Positions 4,660 through 32,248 of a DNA stretch of 59,956 nucleotides are shown piece by piece. The number at the start of each line of letters is the position of its first letter. Positions within the stretch are counted from its first letter, which is position 1. The notes below the pieces were generated by a model. It saw only the letters and a program-made list of their open reading frames with translations. It was not told the origin of the DNA and ran no database searches. A program made the translations under genes and the position numbers. Source of the DNA: Alphaproteobacteria bacterium (GTDB lineage Bacteria; Pseudomonadota; Alphaproteobacteria; UBA7985; JAUIBT01); the NCBI GenBank assembly GCA_030428255.1, contig JAUIBT010000022.1:1-59956 (forward strand), given 5' to 3'.

Positions 4660-6271
4660 GGAACACTCCTTGCCCACCCGAGGAGATCATAGGGCCAAAG
4701 CGCCCGGTGACACCCACACCTTGCATCAGGTCGTTGACGTCAAAGCCTCGCTCCATGTAGCCGCGCAAGTAGAAATCCTTGGCGTCTGCGGCGTTGGCAG
4801 CTTCAAAGGCCGCAACGCTGCGGCGCTGCTGAGCCTCGTCGGGCACGTCATAGCTGGGGGTCACCACAAACAGGATCTGAGTCTCGTCGTCGCGGGAATC
4901 AGAGCGGCGGAACAAATTGCCCAAACCGCGCAGGCCGCCCAGGCCAGGAACTTGCTTTTTGCGACGATCTTGGCGCTTTTGATACAGGCCCGCGATGATC
5001 AAGGTTTGGTTGTTTTCCATCTCAACAGTGGTCTTGGCCCGGCGAACATCGAAGGTGTCCAAATCATTGTATTTGTTGATGTTATCAATGCTGCTGACCT
5101 CGGGCTCCAAAAGCAACTTGATTCGGCCGTCGATCTTAACGGTGGGTGTAAACTTCAGGCTGGTGCCGAATTGTTTGAACTCGGTCTTCCTGGTCACTTG
5201 GCCATCTTCATCGACCGAGGTTCCGGTCACAATTTGCACCTCGCCGCCGGCGTGGAATTCGGCGGACTCGCCCGAAAGAGCGGTCAAGGTGGGCTCGGCC
5301 AGGTACTTGGCATAGCCCTGTTCTTCTAGCAGCTTGAGATAAAGATCAATATTGATGGTCGGGCTGATCAGCGTGAAGCGCGCGATCATGTCGGCAGCGA
5401 TTTGCAGCAAGGTGGTGACGGGTGAATCGCCCGCGCTGCTTCCAAAGGTCTTTTGCCCTGTAGCGCCTGCGCCGTAGAGGCCTAAGTCGCCCTCCAGTGA
5501 GCGCGAGACTTCGATCACGCGAACTTTCAGCGTCACTTGCTCGGCGTTATCAACCACCAGGTTTGAGACGGGGTCTTGTCCGGTGATGGCTTTGACCGCC
5601 GCCTCAAGCAGCTTCTTGGTCTCCTCGTTTGGCGCACTGCCGCGCATCTGCACCGCGTCGTTGACGTAGTCGATTTGCACATCTGCGCCGGGCACCAAGC
5701 GTTGCAATGCATCTTCAATCAGCGAGGCATTGGGCTGGATCTGCAGGGCAGAGATGGGCTTGGTTCCGGTCATTTCTTCGGCGGCACTGACGATGAGCTC
5801 TTCGGTTTTAGTGTCCGGTACGCTGCCCTGGATTTGAAGCGAGGTGTTGACGAAATTGAGCTCAATTTGGGCGCCAGGGGCCAGGCGCCACAAGGACTTC
5901 TTGAGCTGCGCCAGGTCCGGTCCGACCTGCACGTCATAGCTGGCTAGCGTGGTCACGCCGTCTTCGCCCAGCACCAGCACCACGGTCGAGCCGAAGGCGC
6001 GCGCGATCAGGTTGAGCTTCTTTTGGGTGAAGGGCAGGGCCTCGATCACCTTGGGATCTGCGACCGAGATCTGGCCAAAGGGCACGTCAAAACTCAGCAG
6101 GCGTTCGCTGCCAATCGGGATGTAGAGCTTACGGCCCTCGGACGAGGCGGGCGCTGGGCTCGCCAGCATGACACCAAAGCAGAGCAGCAGCGCCATGAGC
6201 CAGCGCAGCCCCGGTCTGGTTTGTAAGGCACTGGCCTGCGACGGTGGCGTGGAAATCAAACAGGCCATCAT
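4649..6271 (-). CDS. cpaC: Type IV/Flp pilus secretin CpaC (RcpA)
   Basis: A 540-residue outer-membrane secretin. After a signal peptide (LMALLLCFGVMLASPAPAS) comes the pilus N domain (LLSFDVPFGQISVADPKVIE). Two BON-like repeats (QIQGSVPDTKTEELIVSAA and VQMRGSAPNEETKKLLEAA) follow, then the secretin core with LAEPTLTALSGESAEFHAGG and the C-terminal ETQILFVVTPSYDVP. It forms the channel through which Flp pili leave the cell. The start ATG overlaps the upstream stop in an ATGA arrangement; a second ATG follows immediately. Length and domain order are normal for the family. Confidence 0.92.
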   Translation of the reverse strand: MMACLISTPPSQASALQTRPGLRWLMALLLCFGVMLASPAPASSEGRKLYIPIGSERLLSFDVPFGQISVADPKVIEALPFTQKKLNLIARAFGSTVVLVLGEDGVTTLASYDVQVGPDLAQLKKSLWRLAPGAQIELNFVNTSLQIQGSVPDTKTEELIVSAAEEMTGTKPISALQIQPNASLIEDALQRLVPGADVQIDYVNDAVQMRGSAPNEETKKLLEAAVKAITGQDPVSNLVVDNAEQVTLKVRVIEVSRSLEGDLGLYGAGATGQKTFGSSAGDSPVTTLLQIAADMIARFTLISPTINIDLYLKLLEEQGYAKYLAEPTLTALSGESAEFHAGGEVQIVTGTSVDEDGQVTRKTEFKQFGTSLKFTPTVKIDGRIKLLLEPEVSSIDNINKYNDLDTFDVRRAKTTVEMENNQTLIIAGLYQKRQDRRKKQVPGLGGLRGLGNLFRRSDSRDDETQILFVVTPSYDVPDEAQQRRSVAAFEAANAADAKDFYLRGYMERGFDVNDLMQGVGVTGRFGPMISSGGQGVFRAD

Positions 6272-29884: not shown

Positions 29885-30817
29885 TTAGCCCAGCACCTCA
29901 ATCAGCTCCGCCCACTCGCGGGATGACAGGCCGGAATCGGCTTGGGTCACGGTCTCGCCCGCCAGGCGACGACGCAAGACCTCGATCATTTTGGCCGACA
30001 GCGAAAAGCTGCCGAGCCGGTAGTCTTCAAACGCGCCGGTGGCCAGCGGCACCCATCGTTTGACCAGCTCGATCATGGCGTCGGCGTAGGCTCTGATCTC
30101 GTACTGGGCGTGAGGATCGCCGCGCAGCGACAGGAAGTGGAACAAGTTGTGCAGGTCAATCTTCCAATACCACTGGGTATAGACGTTGATCGGCAGGCGC
30201 ATGCGGGCCAGCTCGCGCGCCAAGCCGTTGCGTGCGGGGTCAATGATCTGGCCATCGTCGTCTTGGTTCAACAGCTCCAAGTAATGGTCATAGGCCTGGC
30301 CGGATTGCAGTTTGAGTTGCCTCAGCACCTCTTCGGCCTCAGCGCCTTCCAGCACCTGGCCGCGTCCTTGTCGGTTGACGGCAGACTGGGCGGCCAGATT
30401 TTCGGGCGCAGGCACATAGAACTCTTTATCCAGCACCGAATAGCGCGCAGAGATCTCGTTGACGTTGGCGGTGCGGTGGCGAATCCATTGGCGGGCGACA
30501 AACACCGGCAGTTTGACGTGGAACTTGATCTCGCACATCTCGAAAGGGGTCGAGTGGCGGTGGCGCATGAGATAGCGGATCAGGCCCTCATCAGAGCTGA
30601 CCGACTTGGTGCCGCGGCCATAGGAGACGCGCGCGGCCTGCACAATGGCGGCATCATCGCCCATATAGTCCACCACCCGCACGAAGCCGTGGTCCAGCAC
30701 GGGCACGGCGGTATAGAGCAGCTCTTCCAACGCGGGCGCGGTGGCTCTGCGGGTCTGGTGGCTCTGGGCGCGCGCGTCTTGCAGGTCGTCTTGCTGGTCT
30801 TGTGTCAGGTTTTGCAT
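29885..30817 (-). CDS. thyX: FAD-dependent thymidylate synthase ThyX
   Basis: A 310-residue flavin-dependent thymidylate synthase, which makes dTMP from dUMP with methylenetetrahydrofolate and NADPH. The ThyX signature [15 protein letters not shown] (RHR-x7-S) is at about residues 108-122. [20 protein letters not shown] precedes it, and [18 protein letters not shown] and [12 protein letters not shown] follow. It is somewhat longer than minimal ThyX owing to N-terminal residues. ATG at 30817 is preferred over a TTG eleven codons upstream. No thyA is seen in the window. Confidence 0.95.
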
Positions 30818-30984
30818 AGGAAGGGCCTTAACGAGGACGTGTGGTCTCAATACAATCTTAGGTAATCGGCGTCTAGCAAGAATGCTGCGCCTGGGCTCAA
30901 GCTCTGCTTAGCAGCCCGCAGCGCGCTTGTCCCGCCACAAAGCCGGGGTGCAACGACTTGCGGCAGTCGTTCATTTGGGGCTGG

Positions 30985-31355
30985 AAATCTGGGGCCAGAG
31001 CGCCTAACTTAGGGACGTGGGCAACCACTATGGTGATAAACCTGCGTTTGACTAGGCGTTTTGGACCCGGGGGCAGTACCCGGCGTCTCCACCAAATCCT
31101 CCGCAGCGCGCTTTCGGGCTACCGCTGTCGGGTCTTAAGGGGACGACACAGGATCGACATGCGTTGAAAGGCCGTGGCTTTACCCGGACTGATCCCGCGT
31201 TAAAGGGGTCGAGTAAATATAGTTGCAAACGACAACTTTGCTCCGGTTCGTGCTGCCGCTTAAGCGGTATCGCATCCGAAACTTTAATTCCTAGGCTCTA
31301 GCAAGCTATAGGTGGGGGGTGGGGCACCTAGCAACAGAACGCCCCATTTTCTTAT
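30985..31355 (+). ncRNA. ssrA: Circularly permuted two-piece tmRNA gene
   Basis: The 3' acceptor piece comes first. CGCCTA (31001-31006) pairs with TAGGCG (31053-31058), then a T-arm CCGGG-GGCAGTA-CCCGG, then GTCTCC-A-CCA ending at 31094. The coding piece starts at about 31139 with GGGGACGACACAGGATCGAC; its first seven bases pair with the acceptor strand CGTCTCC. It contains the tag frame (31225-31263). Downstream, TAGGTG/CACCTA and GGGGC/GCCCC stems with a T-rich end mark the 3' end. tmRNA frees stalled ribosomes. Permuted ssrA genes are typical of alphaproteobacteria. Outer boundaries are estimates. Confidence 0.9.
31225..31263 (+). other. tmRNA tag reading frame, ANDNFAPVRAAA
   Basis: Codons GCA AAC GAC AAC TTT GCT CCG GTT CGT GCT GCC GCT, then TAA. 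ANDN is the conserved start of alphaproteobacterial tags, likely preceded by the alanine carried on tmRNA itself. The final AAA offers the small hydrophobic C-terminus recognised by ClpX. GCA at 31225 is taken as the resume codon by analogy. Confidence 0.88.
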
Positions 31356-31525
31356 GTGAATAGACAACAGACGTGCGTGGCGCTCCAACGTGCGCGATAA
31401 ACAGCTTTGGCCACTTGTCCGTTGCCACCTCAAGGGCTAGGGTAGCGGCACCGCTTCTGCTGGATGGTTTGTGTGACCCTCGGCTGAGGCAGCCTTGACA
31501 CACCCTTGCGAGCCGACACGAGCCT

Positions 31526-32248
31526 ATGAGCGACTCCTCTTCTGGTCAGACCCCGCCCCCCGAGAGCCTAATTGACTATCCAGGGCTGGTGGATCGGGCC
31601 TTGCGGCAAGTGGTACGCTTGGCGCTGGAGCAAGCCGACGGCGGAGAATTGCCCGGCCAGCACTATTTCTACATCTCGTTTTCCACCCAGTATCCGGGCG
31701 TGGTGATGGACGACGATCTGCGCGCAGGGCACCCCAAGACACTCTCGATCGTCCTGCAGTACCAGTTTGAAAACCTGGTTGTGGGCAGCGATCATTTTGA
31801 AGTGACGCTCTATTTCGGTGGCGATGCCAAGCACCTGTCGGTGCCCTACGACGCCGTGTTGGGCTTCGTCGATCCTTACATCAGTTTTGCGCTGCAATTC
31901 CCGCCGTTAGACGAAGAGGGCGACGGGGAGGTTCAGGACTTGGCGGACGGCAGCCAAGCACGCCCGGCCTACCTGCGCGCGCTGTCGGACGATGACGTGC
32001 CCGAGGCCATCGGGACATCGGAGCCCGATCAGCCGCTTGAGACCCCAGAGACGAAAAGCAGGGCAAAGCCGAAAGGCAAAGCGGCAGGCAAGGCCAAGAA
32101 AGCTGGCGCCAAGTCGAACAGCGGCCAGGCCACTCTGGCACCTGAAGTAGGGGACACGGTGGCCGATCAAGAGCCGTCAGGGAGCAGCGATCAGACGGCG
32201 GATGATGGCTCGAACGTGGTGTCACTGGACCAGTTCCGCAAGAAATAG
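31526..32248 (+). CDS. sspB: ClpXP adaptor SspB, alpha type
   Basis: A 240-residue homologue of SspB-alpha, which binds ssrA tags and delivers the substrates to ClpXP. The tag-binding domain covers about residues 15-130: IDYPGLVDRALRQVVRLAL, HYFYISFSTQYPGVVMDDDL, FEVTLYFGGDAKHLSVPYDA and FVDPYISFALQF. A long flexible Lys/Ala/Pro-rich linker follows. The C-terminal tail NVVSLDQFRKK matches the ClpX-docking (XB) motif. It lies about 170 bp downstream of ssrA on the same strand. Confidence 0.92.
   Translation: MSDSSSGQTPPPESLIDYPGLVDRALRQVVRLALEQADGGELPGQHYFYISFSTQYPGVVMDDDLRAGHPKTLSIVLQYQFENLVVGSDHFEVTLYFGGDAKHLSVPYDAVLGFVDPYISFALQFPPLDEEGDGEVQDLADGSQARPAYLRALSDDDVPEAIGTSEPDQPLETPETKSRAKPKGKAAGKAKKAGAKSNSGQATLAPEVGDTVADQEPSGSSDQTADDGSNVVSLDQFRKK

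Follow-up and report, generated by a model that had tools for sequence, protein, structure and literature searches.

Why should the gene for an RNA that tags proteins lie next to the gene for the adaptor that reads the tag? The question is raised by an alphaproteobacterial locus in which ssrA, encoding a two-piece tmRNA, is followed by sspB, and for which a preliminary description proposed that trans-translation and the degradation of tagged proteins are co-regulated. tmRNA, which is usually discussed together with SmpB, adds a tag of the form ANDN... to proteins on stalled ribosomes; its two-piece form arises by cleavage of a precursor. The tagged protein is then bound by SspB through its tag and taken to ClpXP. 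This pathway, in which tmRNA tags, SspB delivers and ClpXP degrades, has been reviewed (PMC3985003). We use "the window" for the whole stretch of 59,956 nucleotides that was analysed.

Identity of the two genes

The preliminary description, made from the sequence alone, had called a permuted two-piece tmRNA gene about 170 bp before sspB and had suggested a covariance-model search as a check. We found that the Rfam alpha_tmRNA model (RF01849) matches ssrA at 224.3 bits (cut-off 50, E 1e-63) over all of its 355 positions (1-355), and that RF04321, the model for permuted tmRNAs in general, gives a match of 119.1 bits as well. ARAGORN independently called a permuted tmRNA at 31002-31354 with the tag ANDNFAPVRAAA, the resume codon, tag frame and stop all being present. 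The acceptor piece lies 5' of the coding piece, with CCA at 31092-31094 and the coding piece running from 31139; GGGGACG at the 5' end of the coding piece can pair with CGTCTCC in the acceptor piece.

The call of sspB was equally sound. The downstream reading frame matches the Pfam SspB family at 120.9 bits (cut-off 27), as well as the solved SspB chains 2qas and 2qaz (E about 2e-28), which we take to be the Caulobacter SspB structures, and the solved chain 2nys (AGR_C_3712p; E 6e-22). Its C-terminal peptide is of the same type as those of other alphaproteobacterial SspBs, and is taken to be the ClpX-binding end. From the Rfam end of the tmRNA to the sspB ATG we counted 177 nt, in keeping with the distance first given. 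ssrA and sspB each have a single match in the window's genome, where smpB and clpX are also present, each off the ssrA-sspB contig.

Table 1. Features at and around the ssrA-sspB locus of the window
Feature	Coordinates	Strand	Evidence
thyX, flavin-dependent thymidylate synthase, divergent from ssrA; a neighbour, not part of the pair	29885-30850	-	Pfam PF02511, NCBIfam TIGR02170; same position in related loci
ssrA, permuted two-piece tmRNA gene	30978-31348	+	Rfam RF01849 and RF04321, ARAGORN
Tag reading frame, ANDNFAPVRAAA and stop	31225-31263	+	ARAGORN, coding part at gene positions 224-262
Terminal hairpin of the tmRNA coding piece, GGGGC / GCCCC, loop ACCTAGCAACAGAAC, short T run	31314-31353	+	Sequence, fold, related loci
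Conserved block, candidate sspB promoter: TTGTCC (31415-31420), 17 nt, TAGGGT (31438-31443)	31405-31446	+	Three-genome conservation
sspB, ClpXP adaptor for tagged proteins, C-terminus VVSLDQFRKK	31526-32248	+	Pfam PF04386, PDB relatives

Conservation of the pair in Alphaproteobacteria

We asked whether the adjacency recurs in related genomes, using a sample of 61 alphaproteobacterial genomes spread over families, mostly with one genome per family. A tmRNA was found in 53 of the 61 and SspB likewise in 53, with both present in 50. The two genes share a contig in 46 of these 50; in 45 of the 46, sspB is downstream of ssrA on the same strand, and in 36 of the 46 the two lie within 600 nt, the SspB domain starting 41-550 nt past the tmRNA.

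A second sample comprised 80 named loci that were retrieved by SspB alone. The collection scan used a close set of SspB sequences in place of an initial alignment that had proved too diverse, and the 80 loci therefore lean to Rhizobiales- and Rhodospirillales-like groups. ARAGORN placed a permuted tmRNA upstream of sspB in 65 of them (at a distance of at most 260 nt in 62 of the 80), and Rfam found three further tmRNAs among the loci negative in ARAGORN. As for the other negatives, some contigs end early and some Methylobacterium loci are without a tmRNA at that place. Nearly all tags of the linked tmRNAs in the named loci start with ANDN, and a C-terminal peptide of the type VVxLDxFRKK is near-universal among tmRNA-linked SspBs. 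We did not find smpB in the flanks of the 80 related loci.

Across the phylum the picture is different. A count made by hand from two tables gave adjacency in none of the 51 non-alphaproteobacterial Pseudomonadota genomes with confident matches for both genes. ssrA and sspB lie within 250 nt of each other in 13 of the 21 alphaproteobacterial genomes of the phylum-wide sample; the remaining ones have 2-8 kb between the two genes or carry them fully separate. Because the adjacency recurs in the class and is absent in the other Pseudomonadota sampled, it is not a matter of chance. The arrangement is thus conserved class-wide rather than unique to this genome, and we regard it as an ancient alphaproteobacterial gene pair that has been widely kept. 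A linkage that keeps its order and strand throughout the class speaks for a functional tie between the two genes.

In some alphaproteobacterial lineages ssrA and sspB are separated by 1-8 kb holding other genes, or lie far apart, which indicates that co-transcription is not obligatory in the class. Gaps of about 0.8-3.7 kb hold unrelated genes, and since these differ between most lineages, the adjacency looks ancestral.

Is the linkage part of a larger conserved gene order? Of the 70 named loci with a full upstream flank (from L062-L141), 51 carry a thymidylate synthase gene upstream of ssrA and divergent from it, and 44 carry a fumarase gene within 6 kb downstream of sspB. The conservation of these flanks weakens the argument from linkage, and part of the ssrA-sspB linkage may be general gene order. 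The step from ssrA to sspB is nevertheless the closest and most uniform, being on one strand and usually below 260 nt, whereas for the other neighbours distance, identity and presence differ between loci.

Spacing and the terminal hairpin

The median gap from the terminal hairpin to sspB is 83 nt (66 loci). We measured the most compact loci from the Rfam end of the tmRNA to the sspB start, taking by our own choice the nearest sensible start codon. The gap is 18 nt in an alphaproteobacterial MAG (L105), 22 nt in Microvirga terricola, 26 nt in Paramagnetospirillum kuznetsovii, 27 nt both in Alsobacter and in a Paracaedibacteraceae MAG, 31 nt in Azospirillum and 38 nt in Magnetospirillum sp. UT-4. 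At such gaps, a separate sspB promoter would have to sit inside the tmRNA gene; as these lineages offer no promoter space outside the RNA, read-through from ssrA is the simpler reading. We infer likely co-transcription for loci of this kind only, in which sspB starts 18-38 nt past the tmRNA. Start codons of sspB that overlapped the tmRNA in some loci, according to the 3' ends given by ARAGORN, were dropped, since Rfam boundaries give gaps of at least 18 nt.

Folded together with the G run that precedes it, the hairpin of the window's tmRNA gives -16 kcal/mol; a short T stretch follows. Such a terminal hairpin is common to the tmRNA genes of related loci, with a loop close to ACCKRGCAACAGAA. 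An arrangement of terminator plus promoter would predict a stronger T run where the gap between ssrA and sspB is longer; we found no correlation between T-run strength and gap to sspB in 66 loci (Spearman 0.01).

A candidate sspB promoter in the window's genus

In three genomes of the window's genus, the spacers between ssrA and sspB measure 178, 337 and 315 nt and diverge freely except in one block (Table 1). Within this block, 24 of 37 positions are identical in the three congeners, compared with 15 in the best of 200 shuffles. Its two hexamers stand in sigma-70 register; a transcript beginning at about 31450 would start 76 nt upstream of the sspB ATG.

A strict consensus promoter scan found none in the spacer and misses the block. 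Elsewhere in the genome the block has one other exact match and shows no enrichment. A relaxed pattern, with a spacing one base longer than that of the window's site, was no commoner than a reversed control, which is a rough one, and the second half of the block alone occurs in the window at chance level. Because the block is not enriched and escapes the strict scan, we treat the promoter as a candidate. Its conservation suggests that it is probably a separate sspB promoter in this genus. With this block in the spacer and a hairpin that leads into a short T run at the end of the tmRNA, an independent start of sspB is likely in the genus; in the window, at least part of sspB transcription probably begins there.

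How the pair might be expressed

Order, distances and conservation are shown by the sequences themselves; transcripts, the promoter and regulation are read from them. We think it fairly probable that ssrA and sspB are an ancient pair, with read-through in compact lineages, and with loose coupling and an sspB promoter of its own in the window's genus. Keeping the two genes together would allow the adaptor to be made alongside the tagging RNA. The pair would have begun as one transcript, and compact lineages would still express it so: where sspB lies within about 40 nt of the tmRNA, the ssrA transcript is probably read past the terminal hairpin. The window's genus would have loosened this connection through the sspB promoter, retaining the shared location and possibly some read-through beside a separate start from the candidate promoter at 31415-31443. 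The proposal of co-regulation is thus only partly supported. The same-strand linkage across the class favours it, and it loses ground in the window itself, where the conserved block and the hairpin with its T run point to a likely independent start of sspB, one of the two circumstances that the preliminary description had named together as counting against its proposal.

Two other explanations have to be weighed. A plain operon in the window, in which a single promoter before ssrA supplies the adaptor through read-through alone and tagging and delivery therefore co-vary, would fit the order and strand common to nearly all genomes, the very short gaps of some lineages and the strict scan that found no promoter in the spacer. 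Against it speak a spacer of 177 nt whose promoter-like block is kept in three congeners, and a hairpin that runs into a short T stretch, and we consider it unlikely. We are doubtful, though a little less so, about the alternative that the two genes are neighbours merely through a conserved stretch of chromosome, transcribed independently and adjacent without regulatory meaning. The thymidylate synthase and fumarase flanks (51 and 44 of 70) are what it would lead one to expect, and in some lineages ssrA and sspB lie apart with no sign that either has been lost; but the step between the two is closer and more uniform than those to other neighbours, and at gaps of 18-38 nt an independent promoter must lie within the tmRNA gene.

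The reading of an ancient, later loosened pair has a more specific form, which we offer tentatively as a possibility. Across the class, the adaptor would ancestrally have been the protein-coding part of the tmRNA transcript. A single precursor of stable RNA and mRNA would be made, the terminal hairpin would set how often transcription reads on, and tmRNA 3' processing would free the sspB message, such that the amount of adaptor follows tagging capacity; some genera, including that of the window, would later have added an sspB promoter.

Relation to known systems

Both parts of the locus are of known kinds, and the pairing is a well-supported observation of genomic context, not a new system; by analogy with the known families, the biochemistry of the window's pair would follow theirs. 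In the E. coli type, ssrA, smpB and sspB belong to the same pathway with the same partners. ssrA and sspB were adjacent in none of the 51 non-alphaproteobacterial genomes, whereas in the window ssrA pairs with sspB and smpB lies on another contig. The window's ssrA shares the permuted order, an ANDN-type tag and a full-length match with the alphaproteobacterial two-piece tmRNA family; its tag end, RAAA, is shorter than that of many, and it is otherwise an ordinary member. The window's SspB has the substrate-binding domain and a C-terminal VVSLDxFRKK peptide in common with 2qas, 2qaz and 2nys, and differs from the solved SspBs by ordinary sequence divergence, with a long acidic/basic linker. 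For the class, the two-piece tmRNA is represented by Caulobacter ssrA (Keiler et al. 2000) and SspB by the work of Lessner et al. (2007), both as cited in PMC3985003.

We did not come across the class-wide pairing in the literature searched, whose coverage is incomplete, so that an earlier mention is possible. The locus adds a coupling, at the level of the genome, between the tag and its reader, with SmpB, the protein that partners the RNA, encoded elsewhere. Because ssrA is linked class-wide to the tag reader and not to SmpB, the levels of tagging and of ClpXP delivery may be set together in Alphaproteobacteria, and this raises a testable question: does an ssrA-sspB transcript exist, and is it cut? 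tmRNA affects cell-cycle timing in Caulobacter (PMC8119881).

Other variation at the locus

Stretches of 0.8-3.7 kb with other genes lie between ssrA and sspB in genomes G013, G049, G032, G003, G019 and G037 (L152-L157) and at loci L109, L110 and L114. As read from translations, L154 and L157 have a cation-transporter-like and an ArsR-like gene there, and L156 and L110 a metal-dependent-hydrolase-like gene. It may be that the region 3' of ssrA serves as a site of insertion. One alphaproteobacterial genome carries a low-scoring alpha tmRNA (G085:C1:163819-164146, minus strand; 114.6 bits) that is separated from sspB by about 105 kb and lies on the opposite strand. Methylobacterium loci L111, L115 and L126 are without a tmRNA before sspB, and Methylobacterium planeticum (L112) has a weaker match there (5530-5901, 170 bits), not called by ARAGORN; ssrA may have decayed or moved in this genus.

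The slot facing ssrA is filled by ThyA, usually with DHFR behind it, in 37 of the 70 full-flank loci and by the unrelated ThyX in 14, and in none of the 70 by both together. ThyA was not found anywhere in the window's genome, which has ThyX only. It looks as though one enzyme had been replaced, in the same position, by an unrelated enzyme that does the same job. The fumarase slot after sspB holds a second pair of this kind, class II FumC in some loci and the class I enzyme, unrelated to it, in others.
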